A stretch of DNA of 64,000 bases from Anaerobiospirillum thomasii (GTDB lineage: Bacteria > Pseudomonadota > Gammaproteobacteria > Enterobacterales > Succinivibrionaceae): contig NZ_UAPU01000006.1 in assembly GCF_900445255.1 (NCBI RefSeq), positions 105,001 to 169,000 of the forward strand, read 5' to 3'. Both the position numbers and the translations under genes were made by a program. Numbering within the stretch: the first letter of the stretch is position 1; each line of letters opens with the position of its first letter. The notes under the pieces were generated by a model. The model saw nothing but the letters and a program-made list of their open reading frames with translations. It was not told the DNA's origin and ran no database searches. Shown here one piece after another: positions 41,642 through 51,007 of this stretch.

Positions 41642-42631
41642 CTACTGTTTTTCTCCAAGTGAGGCTCTTACCACGAGCTTTGGAGTTAAAACTATTTTAA
41701 TTGGATCCTGAGCATTCTCAATCTCCTGCAGCAAAAGCTCGGCAGCCTTTTTGCCAAGGAAGATCTTGCGCTGATGCACTGTGGTCAAAGGCACGCTTAT
41801 CATGCTGCTGATTTCAAGATCATCATAGCCTGCAACCTTGATATCATCAGGTATTTTAATGCCATGATCCTGACAGTATTTAATGGCACCAAGGGCCACT
41901 GAATCATTAATGGCAAAGATTGAATCAATACCTTTGCCAAGCAGTCCCTTGGTCTTTTTATATCCGTTTTCAAAGGTTGCATCCGTATAGATTATATTGT
42001 GCTCATTAAACTCAATTGCATTCTCTTCCATAACCTGCTTGAAGGCGCGCAGTCGGTCTATAGTAGTTTTAGATCTTTTATTGCCAAGGATAAGACCTAT
42101 ATTTTTACAACCCTGATGGATCATGTGCCTGAAGAGCTGCAGTGCCCCTGTATAGTTGTCATTGATAACAGAGGAGATACTATCAGAGAGCTCAACGTCG
42201 GCCGCTACTACCTGTATGCCGCTATCCTTTATAGCCTTGATATCACTTTCACTGGCTGTGACAGAGACCATGATTATGCCTTCAACTCTCTGCCTTTTTA
42301 GAAACTGAATATTATCCTTTTCAATATGCTCATCGCGGTTGCAGTCGCACAGCAGCACATTATAGCCCTGAGAGCGCAGATATTCGTTAACACCTTTGGC
42401 AATAGAGGCATAATAGGTCGATACCAGATCGGGAATAATAAGACCTATAAGTTTACTCTCTTTGGTAATAAGAGTACGCGCCACCTCATTTGGCGCATAA
42501 TTAAGCTCAATACAGGCCTGTTTGATTTTCTGTCTTAAACTCTCAGACACACCGGCCTTATTGTTTAAAGCCCTTGAAACTGAAGAAGGTGTTACACCGC
42601 AGTGGCGTGCCACGTCTACAATACTTACCAT
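41642..42631 (-). CDS. LacI-family transcriptional regulator
   Basis: The 329-residue repressor starts at 42631 (MVSIVDVARHCGVTPSSVSR) with AGGG upstream; an ATG 7 codons earlier lies in the loop of a hairpin and is less likely. The helix-turn-helix (residues 3-25) and hinge helix (NYAPNEVARTLITK) are followed by a periplasmic-binding-protein-like domain (KLIGLIIPDLVSTYYASIAKGV, GIIMVSVTASESDI, DDIKVAGYDDLEISSMI). It is co-transcribed with the RpiB-like gene and should bind the CAAACGTTTG palindromes at 43357 and 41399, repressing both its own operon and the transketolase-TRAP operon until a sugar-derived ligand appears. Confidence 0.92.
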   Translation of the reverse strand: MVSIVDVARHCGVTPSSVSRALNNKAGVSESLRQKIKQACIELNYAPNEVARTLITKESKLIGLIIPDLVSTYYASIAKGVNEYLRSQGYNVLLCDCNRDEHIEKDNIQFLKRQRVEGIIMVSVTASESDIKAIKDSGIQVVAADVELSDSISSVINDNYTGALQLFRHMIHQGCKNIGLILGNKRSKTTIDRLRAFKQVMEENAIEFNEHNIIYTDATFENGYKKTKGLLGKGIDSIFAINDSVALGAIKYCQDHGIKIPDDIKVAGYDDLEISSMISVPLTTVHQRKIFLGKKAAELLLQEIENAQDPIKIVLTPKLVVRASLGEKQ

Positions 42632-42643
42632 ATTATGCCCTAA

Positions 42644-42663
42644 GGGCCGCATAAAGGCGGCCC
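42644..42663 (-). other. GC-rich hairpin between the isomerase and LacI-family genes
   Basis: GGGCCGC and GCGGCCC form a perfect 7-bp stem with a 6-base loop, 11 bases after the isomerase stop. There is no U-run. It may lower transcription or translation of the downstream regulator relative to the isomerase. Confidence 0.6.
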
Positions 42664-42673
42664 TGCATGTGTA

Positions 42674-43306
42674 TTAAAGTGATTTTAAGAAAGCTGCAAT
42701 CTCATCATCCTGACAGTTTGGATAGAACATCTCTGCAAACTTAGGATCATCAATAGTGCCCTTGACAAAGTCCTTATCAAGATCTTTTAGAATGTCGATA
42801 AGTGGTCTGTGGGTAATGGTCTTAACATGATCTAAGATCTTCTTGTTAGCCTGCTCAGCCTCAGCTCTCTCCTTTGGATAGCCGCCGCCAAATGGACTTA
42901 CAAACAGCTTTTCAAAGGTGTAGCGCAGATTTAACTCACCGCCCCAGCCAAAGTTCTGGGCATATGGCAGAGATATGGCATTGCCACCGTTAACCTGAGT
43001 AAAGAGGTAGGCATCAGTTGGGTTGGTTACATGACCGCACTGTACATTAGGGAAAGCATTGCAGGCAAGACATGCACCTTCACCGGTACCACAGCCTGTT
43101 ACAACAAAATCTACAGCCTTGGTTGATAGAAGAATAGAGGCTAAAAGACCATTTCTTACATAGGTTAAAAATCTCTTGTCTTCAGCGCTGTACATACCAT
43201 AGTTGAATACTTCATGGCCGTGAGCTGATGCAACATCGTTGAGCTCTTTGAAAATAAGAGCGTTCTTAGGGGCCTGTGAGTTTTCAAGAACTAGTGCAAT
43301 TTTCAT
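42674..43306 (-). CDS. RpiB/LacA/LacB-family sugar-phosphate isomerase
   Basis: The 210-residue protein carries the family core: MKIALVLENSQAPKNALI, then VDFVVTGCGTGEGACLACN with the catalytic Cys in CGTGEGA, and NPTDAYLFTQVNGGNAISLP. It is about 60 residues longer than ribose-5-phosphate isomerase B (149), with a C-terminal extension (residues 150-210). Enzymes of this family interconvert aldose and ketose phosphates of four to six carbons. It is first in an operon with the LacI-family regulator and shares that regulator's operator with the split transketolase and TRAP genes, so it is expected to work in the same pathway. Confidence 0.85.
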   Translation of the reverse strand: MKIALVLENSQAPKNALIFKELNDVASAHGHEVFNYGMYSAEDKRFLTYVRNGLLASILLSTKAVDFVVTGCGTGEGACLACNAFPNVQCGHVTNPTDAYLFTQVNGGNAISLPYAQNFGWGGELNLRYTFEKLFVSPFGGGYPKERAEAEQANKKILDHVKTITHRPLIDILKDLDKDFVKGTIDDPKFAEMFYPNCQDDEIAAFLKSL

Positions 43307-43547: not shown

Positions 43548-43552
43548 CAAAA
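43548..43552 (+). repeat. Left 5-bp target duplication of the TniA/TniB-type transposon
   Basis: CAAAA, identical to 49411-49415, directly flanks the terminal TGTC of the transposon. Confidence 0.85.
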
Positions 43553-43601
43553 TGTCACTGCTAAATGAGAATGACGCATTTTAGCTAAGTCATTTTGTCA
43601 T
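43553..43601 (+). repeat. Left end of the TniA/TniB-type transposon
   Basis: Starts TGTCACTGCTAAATGAG and contains TAGCTAAGTCATTTTGTCAT; aligns without gaps with the right end at 38 of 49 positions. It likely holds two transposase binding sites. Confidence 0.85.
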
Positions 43602-43656
43602 GCCTTTAAAGCATTTTGTTCTAATTGTATTAAATAACCTCAAATAGCACATAAAA

Positions 43657-43683
43657 AAAATGATCCCATATAGGGACCATTTT
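43657..43683 (-). terminator. Terminator of the transposon operon
   Basis: AAAATGATCCC and GGGACCATTTT form a stem (one imperfect pair) with a short loop; on the minus strand it is followed by a run of T. It lies 30 bases after the ATPase stop and inside the transposon end. Confidence 0.75.
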
Positions 43684-43712
43684 CGTGTATTATCCTTCTT
43701 GTATTATCTTCT

Positions 43713-44236
43713 TTATCCCAAACACATGTTTGGTGGCAGTTCTCTTTCAATGACAGCTCTAACAAGATCTTCATTGATCACAGACTGTCTGCATTTAGCT
43801 GCATAGATCAGAGAATGTGTGCAGATTTTGTTGATAACTCTAGGCACGCCAGCTGAGGCGTTACTTATCATCTCTATAGCGGCCGATGAAATTATGGTGT
43901 CATCGGTTCCTGCATATTTGAGATGTGTCTCTATGTACTGAGCAACCTGCCAGTTATCCAGAGCCGGAATCTTGCAGATCTGATCTATGCGCTGAATAAT
44001 AGCCTTATGATCTTTATGTGCTATCAAGTCCCATAACTCGTTCTGGCCAGAGAGGATTAGACTCAGAGGATTGCCAGAATCAAATTCGCAATTGAGCATA
44101 AATCTAATTTCCTGCAGAGTGCTACGATTATTGTGATGATCTACCAGGTGAGCCTCATCTACAATTATGACTACATTCTTGCCCTTGACCTCCATTTCCT
44201 TATAGAGCATATCCTGGAGCTGTATACGTGCATCTT
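43713..44236 (-). pseudogene. TniB/ExeA-like AAA+ ATPase, C-terminal part
   Basis: The part after the nested IS reads in frame KDARIQLQDMLYKEMEVKG and then Walker B NVVIIVDEAHLVDHHNNRS, sensor 1 LSLILSGQNELWD and SAGVPRVINKICTHSL, the pattern of ExeA/TniB/IstB-like ATPases that activate and target DDE transposases. Joined to the N-terminal part at 46217-46547 it would give about 284 residues. The interruption removes Walker A from this fragment, so it cannot hydrolyse ATP. An internal Met at 44210 gives a 165-residue frame but no known independent role. Confidence 0.9.
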
Positions 44237-44242
44237 TGGTAT
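44237..44242 (+). repeat. Left target duplication of the nested IS
   Basis: TGGTAT, identical to 46217-46222. Removing the IS together with one copy restores the ATPase reading frame exactly (HT joined to KDAR). Confidence 0.92.
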
Positions 44243-46216
44243 CCTAAATTCTGCATGCCCTATAGTATACAAGATCTTAGAGAACGCATGGTTTAAACCA
44301 GCTCTATAGCCGACAGATCAACTCCTAATGCACCTAGGATGATTTTTTGGGTTTTTGTCAGTGCTTTGGTCAGAAAAATATCTGATTTCGAGCGTTTAAT
44401 ACTTATATCATCAAGCTCTCTTAGTAGTTTCTCATAGGTCATTTTAATAAAGCGTTTTGGCTCTTCGACCTTTAGCTTATTTATAACTTCCTGTATAAAG
44501 CTGTGTACAACTAGAGCCATAAAAATCACAAACATTTTACCTCTTGCAGTATTAGAGTTATGAATTTTTAATCTATCGCAGTCTAAAGTGTTCTTGGCAG
44601 TATCAAAGATCTTTTCCTGCACATCTTTGTGCCTGTAGGCAGACAGTACATCAGCGCCACTAAGATCAGAGTTAGTAGTAAACAGTGCAAAAAAGCCAAG
44701 CAGCTTCTGAGCTTTTATTATTTTATCTTCATCCTCTTTAAATACGTATCCACAAGGGTTACTGTCATCTTTTATGCAATTGTGAAACTTGCACAGAGAC
44801 TTAGCTTTTCTTTGTGTTATTGGCATACCATCATCATTAACTTCCTTGATTTTTTCAATCTCAGCGGCAACTTCTTGACTGAGTATTTTATTATCTTCAT
44901 AACACTTATTCATATCATGGTAAATATGCAGGACACCTTTTACATCTTCTATTGTATGCTCTATACGATGGCCGTAAATTCCTGGGTATTCAGACAATTC
45001 ATATTTTGGCAACCTATATGCCTGGGAGTTAGACAGAGCCTCAATAACCTCAAGGGCTTGCTTATACCTGCTAAGAGAAACACCAACAATGATTTTTAGC
45101 CCCGCATTGTCAAGAAAAGTAATGCCTTTTTGGCTAAAGAAACCTCTGTCAAAGGTACAGACATTGCGCGTGCTGATACCAAGACGCTTGGCATCATTGA
45201 TTACGTATGGTAGTTGCGTAGAATCATTCAGAGAGCCATTGTACATTGAATAATACAGTGGCTTTTTACTTTTTATACTTGAGAACATGCCAAGATTAAC
45301 CTGTGGCAAATCCTCTTTATCTCTGTTATAACCAAACTCAGCATGCTGTATCTCTTGTGCATATGAGGAAAATGAAGTTACGTCGTAACATATTGCTTCA
45401 TTCAGATCCATATGTTTTTTCAGCCATAATTCGAAAAATGAATCTATATCTTCCTGTTCACAAAGAGAAAACAGCCTTGATATTGTTGAATCACTAACAG
45501 AGCCAATCTCAGGCTCATCAAAGACAAATGTCTTTGAAAAGTCATCAATATTACTCATGGTTGAATCACCAGAGGCTATAAGACATGCTGTTGCAGTTAA
45601 ATAGTCAGACTCTTTTTTATCAAAGATCTTTTTTATACAGTCGCTCAAACCTGTATTTTCAAAAATCTTTTTTAATATCAGAGAGCTGCCTTTAACAACA
45701 TCACCATTAACCACAGGTACACCATGAGAAATAGATGTAATCTTTGAACCTCTTTTTTGCTTTTTAGCTTTACGCTCTTCCTTTTTATCTAATACCACCT
45801 GAGGGATGGCCGCACCGGTAATAGCAAAATATTTGTCATTAGGGTGAAACAGTGTTGGATCAGTCTCACTGACTCGACCAACGATAACAGACTTATTGCG
45901 GGACTGTCCTTTTTCATTTCTAAAAAAGGAAGTGTACATATACAGATATTTAATAGGCCTGCCACCACGTATTTCAGACTGTGTATAGCACCTGCTTTGA
46001 GGAACAGCATATGTTATTTCGTAATAAATCATGAAAAGCCCCCTAAAATCACTACTATACAAATAACTAAACTAGCAATATATAGTATACACAAAAACAA
46101 TAAAAAAGCAATGAGTCTTACTAAAAAAAATCATTGCTAACAGTAAATTATTTAAAAAATGATCAGTAAATATAAATGGCTGGGCAAACTACTATATATT
46201 GCATGAAAAATTTAGG
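44243..46216 (-). mobile_element. IS1634-like insertion sequence nested in the transposon ATPase gene (1.97 kb)
   Basis: Both ends start CCTAAATT (left 44243 onward, right 46216 reading inward) with 14 of the first 18 positions matching. A 6-bp direct repeat TGGTAT flanks the element. A single intact transposase gene fills it. It inserted in the ATPase gene in the same orientation. Its ends and protein differ from the IS at 20881-22928, so two separate IS types are present. Confidence 0.92.
44293..46032 (-). CDS. IS1634-like DDE transposase
   Basis: The 579-residue transposase has its first Asp in EAICYDVTSFSSYAQ, the second in NVCTFDRGFFSQKG, and the C-terminal region GFFALFTTNSDLSGADVLSAYRHKDVQEKIFDTAKN, which carries the Y-R-K/E signature of the IS4/IS1634 group, followed by MFVIFMALVVHSFIQE. 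The start at 46032 (MIYYEITYAVPQS) is preceded by AGGGGG 6-7 bases upstream; an ATG ten codons earlier lacks this. It looks complete and potentially active. Confidence 0.9.
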   Translation of the reverse strand: MIYYEITYAVPQSRCYTQSEIRGGRPIKYLYMYTSFFRNEKGQSRNKSVIVGRVSETDPTLFHPNDKYFAITGAAIPQVVLDKKEERKAKKQKRGSKITSISHGVPVVNGDVVKGSSLILKKIFENTGLSDCIKKIFDKKESDYLTATACLIASGDSTMSNIDDFSKTFVFDEPEIGSVSDSTISRLFSLCEQEDIDSFFELWLKKHMDLNEAICYDVTSFSSYAQEIQHAEFGYNRDKEDLPQVNLGMFSSIKSKKPLYYSMYNGSLNDSTQLPYVINDAKRLGISTRNVCTFDRGFFSQKGITFLDNAGLKIIVGVSLSRYKQALEVIEALSNSQAYRLPKYELSEYPGIYGHRIEHTIEDVKGVLHIYHDMNKCYEDNKILSQEVAAEIEKIKEVNDDGMPITQRKAKSLCKFHNCIKDDSNPCGYVFKEDEDKIIKAQKLLGFFALFTTNSDLSGADVLSAYRHKDVQEKIFDTAKNTLDCDRLKIHNSNTARGKMFVIFMALVVHSFIQEVINKLKVEEPKRFIKMTYEKLLRELDDISIKRSKSDIFLTKALTKTQKIILGALGVDLSAIELV

Positions 46217-46547
46217 TGGTATGGAACTTGGCTTCATAGCCCATTTTTGTCAGAGGTATTGCATAGAGCCAGCGGGCAGAGAGATTACTGTCAGATACAT
46301 AGAGAATAGTGTACTTGTCATCATCAAGTTCGGCACTAAGAGCTCTTAGCAGAGTACTTTTACCACAGCCAGGGGCTGCTGTAAGTACAGCAAATTGCTT
46401 GTTTTTGGCAGCATAGAGCAGACGCCCCATGCTGTCTAGAAACTGCTCTGACTGATAGAGGGCCTCGACAGGTATATTCTGCGTAAATGGGGTAGATGAC
46501 ATATTGAAAAAAGCCTTAAAATCCAGGTTTGGCAGATTCTCGTACAT
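46217..46547 (-). pseudogene. TniB/ExeA-like AAA+ ATPase, N-terminal part
   Basis: The fragment begins MYENLPNLDFKAFFNMSSTPF, typical of ExeA/TniB proteins (F-x-PF near the start), and contains Walker A LTAAPGCGKSTLLRAL (about residues 56-71). It breaks off at YEAKFHT, where the IS has inserted. It starts 10 bases after the DDE transposase stop. In Tn7/Tn5053-like systems the partner ATPase is essential for target capture. Confidence 0.9.
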
Positions 46548-46557
46548 AATTTATATC

Positions 46558-48111
46558 CTATAAAGTGTTGTTATCATTGTTGATTTTGCTTTGAACAGCA
46601 TATGGAGATGCCACCTCTGGGCCTCTTGCCATATTTCTGCTCTCAGTGCTCTTATAAAACTTACTGTTAAAATCTCGGACAAACTCATCCTCAGTAGTAT
46701 AGGTGCCATCCCGTCTGGCTTTGTCTCGTGACAGAGCCATACAGTAGCGGGGTGGGCATGTGTTGACCTCATCAGGGCGCTGTTTATGTCCCTGTCCTTT
46801 ACCTCTAGTCTTTGCAGGTTTGTCACAGGCATTGTCTGCAGGTGCCTTATTATCTGTATCTGTTTTATAATCTGGCTGAGGGCAGCTCTTGAGATTTAAA
46901 GGCTCAATGACTCTTATATCTTTAACATCCAGGACCTGATAAACAATGCCTTTTTCATCTATCATGAATTCTGCAGAGTCATTGACATAAATACCTTTAG
47001 AGGAATCCACAATAGCTTTATAGCTTATGTTATTGATACTCACAGTACCGTCCTTGCCTATAACGCGTGTTTTAGTAATTCTAAAAGCAGTATTGATGAT
47101 GTCAGGAGTAGTAAAGCGCCTTGGAAACGTGTCTGCATCAAACACCTGATTTGGCGTCTTGTTGTCCAGGGTTGAGTGTGATCTGTTGTTATGCTCATTA
47201 ACCCATATCTCCACAATCTCCCTGAGACCTTCAATACTTATGTTTTTCAGATGTTTAATGTCATTCTCAATTTCATTAAGATCCAGATTTACTCTCTCAA
47301 CCATACCCTTGGACTCTGCTGCATATGGACGGCAGTAATGCAGCTTCATATCAAGCAGATAAGCAGCTCTGGCCAGTATTTTGCTGCGATATATAGAGCC
47401 ATTGTCCAGAACCAGTGTTTTAGGTATACCCAGATTGCAGACCAGTGATTTAATTGAGTCTGTCACCAGCTGTACCTTCTGCTCTGTCGACACAGCAAAT
47501 GAAATGATTTTTCTTGAGTGATTGTCCACGCAGAGCTGTATATAGGCATTGCAGCTGATACCACTGTCGTCTGTAATCAGACCTTTAGGCAGCTCCTTTA
47601 CGTCACACTGCACAGAATCAAGCACATGCTTTTTGCGGTAGCGCAGATAAATCTCTCTGTAATCGCAGGTGTCCTTTTTAATCTGTGTTCTGTTGCAGTT
47701 GTTGCGCTTGAGATATAACTGCACTGTAGAGCGTTTTAGCAAACCGACAAAATCAGGGAACTCACTTTCAACTACACGTAAAAGCTGAGGCACAGTTAAA
47801 GTCATATTTTCTTTGCGATATGCAATGACAATCTTAATAGCAGCGTCAAAGAGCCTATTGGTCTTTGCCTTTGGCTCTGAGCCTTTATAGGATGGCTTTA
47901 AAGCCTGAATATCTTTACCATTATTAATGTATCGCTCCAGCCAACGCTGCAATGTCCTGACCGAGCATCCTGCATTCGCAGCTGCCATTTTTATCATGGC
48001 AGTAAAGGTAGTGCCGTCAGTGCATCCTGTATTTTTGGCAATGATAAGCGCTGACAGAATGCGTAATCTGGCGTCTAAATCGACAATATATTTTTTCTTT
48101 CTTATGGTCAT
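46558..48111 (-). CDS. DDE transposase of the TniA/TnsB/Mu type
   Basis: The 517-residue protein has N-terminal helix-turn-helix regions (residues 10-60, ANAGCSVRTLQRWLERY), an rve integrase core with VQCDVKELPKG (first Asp), TLVLDNGSIYRSK (second Asp) and ESKGMVERVNLDLNEIE (Glu), a Mu-transposase-like beta-barrel domain (about residues 340-420), and a basic C-terminal tail that would contact the ATPase. AGGGAGGGG precedes the ATG. The gene is intact, so the enzyme could act if the ATPase is provided by another copy. Confidence 0.9.
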   Translation of the reverse strand: MTIRKKKYIVDLDARLRILSALIIAKNTGCTDGTTFTAMIKMAAANAGCSVRTLQRWLERYINNGKDIQALKPSYKGSEPKAKTNRLFDAAIKIVIAYRKENMTLTVPQLLRVVESEFPDFVGLLKRSTVQLYLKRNNCNRTQIKKDTCDYREIYLRYRKKHVLDSVQCDVKELPKGLITDDSGISCNAYIQLCVDNHSRKIISFAVSTEQKVQLVTDSIKSLVCNLGIPKTLVLDNGSIYRSKILARAAYLLDMKLHYCRPYAAESKGMVERVNLDLNEIENDIKHLKNISIEGLREIVEIWVNEHNNRSHSTLDNKTPNQVFDADTFPRRFTTPDIINTAFRITKTRVIGKDGTVSINNISYKAIVDSSKGIYVNDSAEFMIDEKGIVYQVLDVKDIRVIEPLNLKSCPQPDYKTDTDNKAPADNACDKPAKTRGKGQGHKQRPDEVNTCPPRYCMALSRDKARRDGTYTTEDEFVRDFNSKFYKSTESRNMARGPEVASPYAVQSKINNDNNTL

Positions 48112-48146
48112 AACAGACCCCTCCCTTTAAAAAGTAGGCTCTTGCC

Positions 48147-49124
48147 TTAGGATGAGTCTATTTTCATATCTAACAGTCCTTCTAGCCATAACAGATGTGT
48201 TGATACATTAGGAAAATGGTGGGTGAGCAGGGCCTGCAGCCTGTAGGCTGCAGATGTATGCTGTTTTAAAAAATCACTGCAATCTTCAGGAACAAAATCA
48301 GAGCTTTCTTTAACACCGCCAGCCTTTTGCGATTTATCATGCTCCTTTTGCGCACTTAAGCCTGAGTTAAGCATCCTTGATATGTTGTTATACACTTTGA
48401 ATATCAATTTGGCTGTAGGCTCGAGCAAAAGCGCTTGTAGATACAGCGCTATGCTCTGTACTCTCTCATCGTTGACCGCATTTTTCTCAAGCTGCAAACA
48501 CTTTCTGATATGCCGATAGACAGCTTTAATGTCATTATCATTTTTTAATATTATCAAAGCCTCTACAGTATCTAATGACAAAGCTGTAAATGGAAAAGAT
48601 ATAGGGCTTAAAACCAAATGTGTAGGCCTGTGCTTCTGAGTATGAGCGACAAGTACTATTGGCTTCTTTTTCTTTGCTTTTTTGTTATCAGTTGCTTTAG
48701 CATGCCCACACTGCACCTGTGTACCATCCTGCTCCTTACTTTCATTAGGTTGGTTACTATCCTGAGTTTTGGATATTCTTAATCTTGTTTTACCTCTGCA
48801 GTCATGGTTGGTGCACTGCATTCTGTTGCACTTTAGGTAATAGACGTTGTTGCTATCCATGACAGCATAAAGACACTCGTTAAGCTCATCTTTAAAGGCT
48901 TTGTAGTGATAACCAAAGAAGTTTAAAGGATGGCCACAGTAAGGACATACAGCCTTGTATCTTTGAGCCTCACCTATGGTGCAGTCAATAACCCTGGCCT
49001 TAAAGTCGGTCTGACCGTCAACAAGTGAGGCTCTATCAGAAAAGCGTGCAAATGAAGCAGGAATAATTTGTTCTTTATATATTTTATTGCGTGAGTTTTG
49101 ATGACAAAGTTGTGATATAATCAT
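48147..49124 (-). CDS. Transposon-encoded zinc-ribbon protein of unknown function (DUF6431-like)
   Basis: The 325-residue protein has an N-terminal zinc-binding segment: YKAVCPYCGHPLNFFGYHY and then YYLKCNRMQCTNHDCRGKTR, giving two Cys pairs plus extra Cys/His. A Lys-rich linker (residues 120-155) and an alpha-helical C-terminal half without recognised catalytic motifs follow. It is the first gene of the transposon operon, where Tn7 carries tnsA and where Tn5053-like elements do not usually have a gene. It resembles proteins labelled DUF6431 next to DDE/ATPase pairs (recalled, not searched). A DNA- or target-binding role is a reasonable guess, no more. Confidence 0.65.
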   Translation of the reverse strand: MIISQLCHQNSRNKIYKEQIIPASFARFSDRASLVDGQTDFKARVIDCTIGEAQRYKAVCPYCGHPLNFFGYHYKAFKDELNECLYAVMDSNNVYYLKCNRMQCTNHDCRGKTRLRISKTQDSNQPNESKEQDGTQVQCGHAKATDNKKAKKKKPIVLVAHTQKHRPTHLVLSPISFPFTALSLDTVEALIILKNDNDIKAVYRHIRKCLQLEKNAVNDERVQSIALYLQALLLEPTAKLIFKVYNNISRMLNSGLSAQKEHDKSQKAGGVKESSDFVPEDCSDFLKQHTSAAYRLQALLTHHFPNVSTHLLWLEGLLDMKIDSS

Positions 49125-49179
49125 ACTGCTTTTTGAGCAGGCTACAGCTGATGTCGTCCAAAACAGTGCAGCTGTAGCC
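49125..49179 (-). promoter_or_regulatory. Structured leader before the transposon operon
   Basis: An 11-bp perfect stem GGCTACAGCTG/CAGCTGTAGCC (49140-49150, 49169-49179) with an 18-base loop, followed by a second small hairpin CTGCTCAAAAAGCAG that reaches the start codon at 49124. No normal Shine-Dalgarno is free. The arrangement suggests control of translation or a dimeric repressor site. Confidence 0.6.
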
Positions 49180-49361
49180 CTTATAAAATCTAACTCTATA
49201 AGAAACCCACCTAATTTTAATTAAAAATCACATAAAAACAAAGAGCACAGGTAAGCATATGCAACCCTGATCTTTGTGCACACTCTATTCCAAATTTTCA
49301 GATCACATGCATGTAGATAAAAATAATGTATGAAAAAATAGCTGACACAATAAAAATAAGT
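49180..49361. other. Non-coding inner right end of the transposon
   Basis: AT-rich sequence between the leader and the right terminal repeat. It contains further TGTCA-type motifs (near 49343) that may bind the transposase, and should include the operon promoter. Confidence 0.45.
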
Positions 49362-49410
49362 ATGACAAACTGATTTAGCTATAATTGGTCATACTCATAT
49401 GTCATAGACA
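49362..49410 (-). repeat. Right end of the TniA/TniB-type transposon
   Basis: Read inward on the minus strand it starts TGTCTATGACATATGAG and contains TAGCTAAATCAGTTTGTCAT. It is followed outside by the target duplication CAAAA (49411-49415). Confidence 0.85.
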
Positions 49411-49415
49411 CAAAA

Positions 49416-49942: not shown

Positions 49943-50977
49943 TTATGCAAGCAGTTTGGCAGGATTTAGCCTTAAGAGCTTGTCAACAGTTGCCAGGCTT
50001 ACTCCCTTTTGCATTAAGAGTGATACAAAGACAGTTGGCACAAATATAAAGCCATTGCCACCGTTTTTAGTCCACATCTGTTTTAAAAACACATCATGTG
50101 ACAGAACAATCTGATCTTCATATCCCTGCTTTATAAGATTGTATACATTGTTTACAGTCTCAGGCACACTAGGACCAACTCCCTCTTTAGGGAAGGATAT
50201 GTCCTGGGCAATCATATCAAACTCTATATAAATGCCTCTATCTAAAAGCCTCTTCTGATAATCAAAGTCCTCTCCTGAAGGATCAGAATGAGCTAAAGAT
50301 ATTTTTTCAGGATTGGCCCCCATTTCGTCGATCATAATGTCAAGCACTTCATCGCCAAAACGCATCCAGCCTGGCATATGAATATTAACACTGACACTTG
50401 GATTTAATTGCTGAGCAATTGCACCGGCTCTTAAATTATTCTTTTCACCTGGTGTAAATCTTGGAGATACACCAAGCTCACCAATAAGACCGGCTTTAAT
50501 GTCAGTGCCATCTATACCTATATTAAGATCATTATCGTATTCCTTGGCAATAATCTCAGGCTTACGCAGAAGTTTTTCCTCTGTCTCAAACTTAGATAGA
50601 TAATATCCGGTTGAGGCTATAACATTAATGTTTTTAGCTACAGCAACTTCGTGAATTTTCTTAATATTGCGGCCAATAGAGGCAGATCCTGTTGCCTCGA
50701 CAATTGTTCTGCCTCCAATTTCAATGAACTTTTCAACTTCATCACAGACGTCAGCAACATCCTTTTCAGACATATTGTCTTTATTGCAGTAAGGATCATA
50801 ACGTAATCCGTAGGCAATATCAGGACTTACCTTTTTGTCGGCAATAAACTTTGAATATGGGTAGAAAGGCTCATCTACACATCCTGACAAGTCATTGAAA
50901 AAGTGCTCATGAACCAGACAGATACCAAGACTGTCATTTTTTACCTTTCCTGTAACAGTTTGTACGCAATCTTTCAT
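49943..50977 (-). CDS. Phosphotriesterase-family hydrolase (lactonase-like)
   Basis: The 344-residue amidohydrolase-superfamily protein shows the metal ligands of the phosphotriesterase group: LVHEHFFND (H-x-H), KAGLIGELGVSPRF (bridging acidic residue region), VNIHMPGW, KISLAHSDPSGED and VLSHDVFLKQ (Asp). The start at 50977 (MKDCVQTVTG) has GAGG 8 bases upstream; an ATG two codons earlier is too close to it. Relatives in sugar operons are often lactonases or esterases. It is the third gene of an operon after a glutamine-amidotransferase-like gene and a DMT permease, opposite an AraC-type regulator. Confidence 0.88.
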   Translation of the reverse strand: MKDCVQTVTGKVKNDSLGICLVHEHFFNDLSGCVDEPFYPYSKFIADKKVSPDIAYGLRYDPYCNKDNMSEKDVADVCDEVEKFIEIGGRTIVEATGSASIGRNIKKIHEVAVAKNINVIASTGYYLSKFETEEKLLRKPEIIAKEYDNDLNIGIDGTDIKAGLIGELGVSPRFTPGEKNNLRAGAIAQQLNPSVSVNIHMPGWMRFGDEVLDIMIDEMGANPEKISLAHSDPSGEDFDYQKRLLDRGIYIEFDMIAQDISFPKEGVGPSVPETVNNVYNLIKQGYEDQIVLSHDVFLKQMWTKNGGNGFIFVPTVFVSLLMQKGVSLATVDKLLRLNPAKLLA

Positions 50978-51007
50978 ATACATGACCTCACTTTTATCTG
51001 TGCAACG

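Follow-up and report, generated by a model that had tools for sequence, protein, structure and literature searches.

A three-gene transposon carrying a nested insertion sequence

We analysed a 64,000-nt stretch of DNA from Anaerobiospirillum thomasii (Succinivibrionaceae), referred to here as the window (forward strand of contig NZ_UAPU01000006.1, assembly GCF_900445255.1, positions 105,001 to 169,000), and all coordinates below are those of this window. It contains a mobile element whose gene order, from the right end, is zinc-ribbon protein, DDE transposase and AAA+ ATPase, and whose ATPase gene is interrupted by an insertion sequence (IS) of the IS1634 family. The zinc-ribbon protein, which the element has in place of TniQ, is the main subject of this analysis. 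The features are as follows, with TSD standing for target-site duplication and ORF for open reading frame.

43548–43552, no strand: left TSD CAAAA, adjoining the outer element
43553–43601, forward strand: left terminal repeat on the ATPase side, with a TGTC tip and short TGTC/ATGAC-type repeats ~22 bp apart
43713–44210, reverse strand: C-terminal fragment of the AAA+ ATPase with Walker B, gene split by the IS1634-family element
44237–44242, no strand: TGGTAT, 6-bp TSD on one side of the IS1634-family insertion
44243–46216, reverse strand: inserted IS1634-family element, transposase ORF 44293–46062, missing from the intact outer copies
46217–46222, no strand: TGGTAT, 6-bp TSD on the other side of the IS1634-family insertion
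46212–46547, reverse strand: N-terminal fragment of the AAA+ ATPase, carrying Walker A; the gene is interrupted by the IS1634-family element
46558–48111, reverse strand: DDE transposase, 517 amino acids, TnsB/IS481-like, triad D170, D236, E272
48147–49124, reverse strand: zinc-ribbon protein, 325 amino acids, first gene, probable divergent DUF6431 relative, motifs CPYC, MQCTNHDC and THLVLSPISFPF
49362–49410, reverse strand: right terminal repeat at the zinc-gene end of the element; 78% complementarity with the left repeat
49411–49415, no strand: right TSD CAAAA, a perfect copy of the left one

The two 49-nt terminal repeats, with tips TGTC...GACA, are complementary at 38/49 positions (binomial P ~2.5e-13 for one comparison). 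The A. thomasii genome holds four copies of the element, the window copy included, and because the other three have exactly the same end bases within different flanks, the ends are proven. Two copies are intact, each 3,878 bp long, free of the IS1634-family element and containing just three genes: L009, with the TSD AGTGC, and L010, which has no TSD and whose partner flank could not be located in any of the other copies. In the remaining copy, L011, with the TSD CCATGG, the transposase gene is broken by an insertion other than the IS1634-family one. The duplications thus measure 5 bp in two of the four copies and 6 bp in one, and are lacking in one. The transposases of the copies are 99–100% identical. 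The further copies show that the outer element is a real mobile element that moved in the recent past.

An earlier note on this DNA had described the 49-base termini, the TGTC start and the CAAAA duplication, all of which the further copies bear out. It had also presented the locus as one 5.86-kb unit with three genes, and here the outer ends, the zinc-ribbon ORF and the DDE ORF stand, but neither the single unit nor a single ATPase gene does. Since the intact copies are 3,878 bp long without the IS, the true unit is a 3.88-kb transposon into which a 1.97-kb IS is nested, and the ATPase gene of the window copy is disrupted; in intact copies it encodes 284 amino acids with Walker A and Walker B motifs. 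The nested element, which has the ends CCTAAAT...ATTTAGG and a transposase matching NF033559 (NCBIfam, 2.6e-66), is present in several more near-identical copies in the genome.

A transposase and ATPase of the AAA+-dependent superfamily

Taken alone, the window transposase exceeds a Pfam cut-off for rve only. Its closest NCBIfam transposase model is IS481 (1.5e-39), at 136.2 bits against a cut-off of 224, and it likewise falls below the cut-offs of the IstA model (47.5 against 160 bits) and the IS3 model. Its catalytic triad is invariant among 11 relatives, and the profile of these relatives, searched against solved structures, places TnsB of the type V-K CRISPR-associated transposon first (1.8e-29, nearly full length), followed by IS21-family IstA (~1e-19) and retroviral integrases. 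The intact ATPase from the same genome matches AAA_22 and matches neither TniB nor IstB; the IstB model gives 16 bits on the N-terminal fragment, against a cut-off of 200. The best solved structure for the ATPase family profile is MuB (1.1e-8). A Tumebacillus relative, L113, passes the Pfam cut-offs for Mu-transpos_C (39.5 against 21.7 bits) and, with its ATPase, for TniB (25.9 against 22.4 bits).

A DDE transposase and a Walker-motif AAA+ ATPase within defined ends make this an AAA+-dependent DDE transposon, in the superfamily of TnsB–TnsC, MuA–MuB and IstA–IstB. The label 'TniA/TniB-type' used previously is right at the level of this superfamily and not at that of the family, because the transposase and the intact ATPase of A. 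thomasii match rve and AAA_22, and the family profiles lie near TnsB and MuB.

A probable DUF6431 protein unrelated in sequence to TniQ

By itself, the zinc-ribbon protein has no match in Pfam, NCBIfam or PHROG, no plasmid homologue by tblastn, and no useful match in a fold search with its predicted model. When it is grouped with the L066 and L067 proteins, its closest relatives, which occupy the same gene position, hhalign gives 96.8% with DUF6431 (PF20020), and the DUF6431 cut-off of 26.6 bits is passed by the syntenic relatives L020 (27.5) and L026 (37.7). The window protein keeps CPYC, MQCTNHDC and THLVLSPISFPF, and the zinc ligands and a TH..LP...PF motif are conserved. The homologue from L081 matches DUF6431 at 8.1e-32; its AlphaFold2 model (predicted local distance difference test (pLDDT) 79.6) has a zinc ribbon at about residues 22–71 and, after it, one short strand and then helices. 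Where the model of the window protein is confident, its strands and helices come in this order too. On this evidence, the window protein is probably a member of the DUF6431 family. A weak match at L015 (an EAL-type protein, 1.5e-4) was judged to be due to chance.

Two comparisons indicate what kind of protein DUF6431 is. The family aligns with the N-terminal zinc-ribbon and helix-turn-helix module of ISL3 transposases (hhalign 96.8%, 93 columns), and a fold search with the DUF6431 model recovered zinc ribbons only (NrdR, TFIIS, RPB9-like; Z ~5 or less), the L081 ribbon superposing on NrdR with Z 5.1 and a root-mean-square deviation of 2.2 over 41 residues. Homology to TniQ was rejected at the level of sequence, hhalign against PF06527 giving 16.9% for the DUF6431 family and 0.5% for the window group; a TniQ fold was not among the listed structure matches of the DUF6431 model, a listing that does not exclude a TniQ-like fold. 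The statement that the element has no TniQ and no resolvase proved accurate: PF06527 has no match inside the element or in the whole A. thomasii genome, and the intact copies have neither a resolvase nor TnsA.

The zinc gene accompanies and co-varies with the transposase

We scanned a transposase alignment against 84,980 species genomes. Of the 296 loci obtained, the best 80 were retained, a choice that biases the sample towards close relatives. Among the 77 relatives analysed, which comprise kept genome loci and viral loci (eight viral loci were found by the transposase) and are mostly from Bacillota, the transposase gene is immediately preceded by a DUF6431-type ORF in 71. Four of the six others have a degenerate zinc gene (L068), a zinc-ribbon ORF below the threshold of the hidden Markov model (HMM; L143), a rearranged locus (L129) or a longer, Mu-like transposase (L150). 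In Tumebacillus avium the zinc gene lies inside multi-copy units with identical ends, different sites and 5–6 bp TSDs, and four relatives (L075, L083, L099 and L118) are contigs of ~3.0–3.3 kb with read coverages of 295–517 in their titles, as expected for multi-copy elements.

The element is also not the isolated oddity that it may appear. Public plasmids of Bacillota and Pseudomonadota carry unnamed trios annotated as DUF6431, DDE integrase and AAA ATPase, with the same kinds of genes in the same order, DUF6431 first (for example, in Alicyclobacillus dauci, Planococcus lenghuensis, Ruminococcus albus and Cupriavidus necator). They differ in a zinc protein of ~160–190 amino acids that Pfam recognises, whereas that of the window has 325, with long inserts, and lies below detection; in several to most of them the trio is also followed by a small fourth gene, DUF5348 or hypothetical, that the window element does not have. 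Because the same gene set recurs in many bacteria, the zinc protein is probably a standard, if unstudied, part of the machinery. The expected pairing of the zinc gene with a TniA/TniB-like pair is thus strong without being absolute, given the locus L145 described below and two solo genes. Among Gammaproteobacteria, three DUF6431 genes adjoin a DDE gene and two are solo, further weak matches being ISL3 transposases. The solo genes (L173:4503-5096 and L174:2796-3329), which have no transposase and one of which adjoins pyrG/kdsA/eno-type genes, are either remnants or co-opted copies. A search of phages and viral contigs with a DUF6431 protein gave no phage match and a single viral contig, already known.

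In related Bacillota elements, the ratio of nonsynonymous to synonymous substitution rates is 0.16–0.33 for the zinc gene, 0.04–0.11 for the transposase and 0.02–0.10 for the ATPase. The zinc gene is therefore under purifying selection, although it evolves faster than the other two. Pairwise distances of the zinc protein and the transposase correlate at 0.92–0.94; the partial correlation is 0.71 when the ATPase is given (bootstrap 0.40–0.81), and that of zinc protein and ATPase when the transposase is given is 0.06 (−0.34 to 0.51). Because the zinc protein tracks the transposase and not the ATPase, it is, on this indirect evidence, more plausibly associated with the transposase or the ends than with the ATPase.

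Insertion sites without an evident target sequence

We inspected 22 insertion sites of elements from Tumebacillus and Aneurinibacillus, of two A. thomasii element families and of IS21-type copies. Duplications of 5–6 bp flank 20 of the 22, and the sites lie both within ORFs and between genes, with no shared target sequence evident by inspection. The lack of an evident motif makes a sequence-specific target selector unlikely; the element probably inserts in a random-like manner, as Mu and IS21 do. At the element ends, short TGTC-type repeats ~22 bp apart form arrays; arrays of short end repeats are likewise found in Tn7, Mu and IS21.

The second A. thomasii family (L055/L056) is of the same three-gene type, 4,003 bp long and 27% identical, with the TSDs TCATT and ACTGC and an end-repeat array that is longer on the ATPase side.

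Related first genes in IS21-type elements

IS21-type elements of A. thomasii also begin with a DUF6431-like ORF, with cysteines in L050/L051 and without them in L053/L054; their IstA and IstB fall below curated NCBIfam cut-offs, although these models are their best matches. A search with one IstA led to IS21-type relatives in seven other genomes that likewise begin with an ORF of this kind, and some loci in the same search show none, so its presence is not universal. These first ORFs reach 97.5% with DUF6431 in profile comparison, and an HMM built from them, with no Bacillota input, recovered DUF6431-type ORFs from a six-frame set among the matches listed. Many have lost the zinc ligands while keeping an LPDF.LPY segment. 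One could imagine a stand-alone DUF6431 protein as an obligatory third subunit of both TnsB/MuB-like and IS21-type transposons, with a TniQ-like licensing role that involves no target sequence and with zinc dispensed with in many IS21-type versions while LPDF.LPY stays; we regard this broader generalization as possible but doubtful.

The L050-type IS21 element ends in an 82-amino-acid ORF that resembles the Bacillota DUF5348 gene by eye and has no Pfam match.

A proposed role for the zinc-ribbon protein

On balance, we favor, with modest confidence, the reading in which the zinc-ribbon protein belongs to an AAA+-dependent transpososome as a stand-alone DNA-binding subunit, acting with the transposase or the ends and not as a site-specific target selector. 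The transposase would bind the repeated end sites, cleave the strands and transfer them; target DNA would be captured and activated, with little sequence preference, by the MuB/TniB-like ATPase; and the DUF6431-type protein, a stand-alone version of the ISL3 module, would work with the transposase, most likely by recognising or pairing the ends. Since it has neither TnsA nor a resolvase, the element may use copy-paste or co-integrate routes of movement. The absence of a TSD at L010, a single case, would fit a rearrangement after insertion. A sequence-based choice of targets by the zinc protein found no support, given the 22 sites without a common motif, the co-variation with the transposase and the alignment with the ISL3 module and not TniQ; nor did the idea that TniQ is a needed component, since Mu and IS21 do without it.

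Several observations weigh against this reading. Compared alone with the DUF6431 profile, the window protein gives E ~7 (hhalign 45%), so that membership in the family, which needs the L066/L067 intermediates, gene position and shared motifs, is probable only. Its predicted model is poor overall (pLDDT 57.6), and for the helices that follow the zinc ribbon in the family no solved fold was a clear match. The zinc gene is missing from L112 and L145, and its loss from L145 means that it is perhaps not strictly required; L027, a two-gene relative that also lacks it, is single-copy and so does not prove mobility without it. Finally, the interval for the zinc protein and ATPase is wide, and distance correlations can mirror shared history.

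The strongest alternative, which we consider rather unlikely, is that the zinc protein is a target-side analogue of TniQ, sitting on target DNA, with no strong preference for particular sequences, and loading or stopping the ATPase filament there. Its gene takes TniQ's place in an AAA+/TnsB-type gene set, in a genome with no TniQ match, and TniQ likewise has zinc finger and helical domains (PMC10293859). The homologous first genes of IS21-type elements, in which the ATPase is of a different kind, make a role in AAA+-dependent transposition generally plausible. However, the protein has no sequence relation to TniQ, it tracks the transposase and not the ATPase once the other of the two is controlled for, and the insertion sites have no evident common motif. 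Less probable still is a role in transcription, in which the protein would regulate the transposase operon, overlapping the end repeats, and so control copy number, as the position of the gene (first, adjoining one end), its zinc-ribbon/helix-turn-helix make-up and its evolving fastest of the three genes could suggest; the strong co-variation with the transposase and the conservation in two different transposon classes exceed the needs of a mere repressor. We give very little credence to an ordinary catalogued IS of the IS481 or IS21 family with an irrelevant hitch-hiking ORF: IS481 is the closest NCBIfam transposase model and databases already hold the DUF6431/DDE/AAA trio, but IS481 elements are not known to have an ATPase, the IS21 models stay below their cut-offs, and the ORF is present in nearly all relatives, is under purifying selection and co-evolves.

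If the zinc protein is indeed a transpososome subunit, a conserved, co-evolving, non-TniQ zinc-ribbon subunit in a widespread group of TnsB/MuB-like transposons, with a homologue in IS21-type elements, would represent a new control module of AAA+-dependent transposons, DUF6431 would gain a function, and the compact three-gene element would make the module testable.

Relation to known transposons and flanking genes

We found no description of this element type in the literature searched, in which one paper names DUF6431 and none names DUF5348 (ISfinder lay outside the search). The type is known to annotation databases, and what would be new is a dedicated ISL3-type zinc-ribbon subunit in place of TniQ. 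Tn5053/Tn402 (TniABQR) and Tn7 (TnsABCD) share with it a DDE transposase of TnsB/TniA-like kind and an AAA+ ATPase of TnsC/TniB-like kind, as well as TGT...ACA-type ends, repeated end sites and, for two of its four copies, duplications of 5 bp, whereas the window element lacks TniQ/TnsD, the resolvase and TnsA and has a zinc protein unrelated to TniQ by profile. IS21 (IstA/IstB) also combines a DDE transposase and an AAA+ ATPase without TniQ, and the IS21-type elements of Succinivibrionaceae share the DUF6431-like first gene, but the window transposase and ATPase lie on another branch and canonical IS21 has no third gene. ISL3 transposases have the aligned zinc-ribbon and helix-turn-helix module fused to the transposase, and they work without an AAA+ ATPase.

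Two minor observations concern neighbouring genes. In the tails of the Succinivibrionaceae elements L066 and L061, the ATPase is followed by a gene with a KfrA_N domain (DNA binding, plasmid replication region), and L067 and L062 have ORFs that resemble it by eye. In the window, the genes flanking the element on the same strand (41642–43306 and 49943–50983) resemble a regulator of LacI type, an isomerase of RpiB/LacA type and a phosphotriesterase-like hydrolase, so that the element may split a sugar-related operon.

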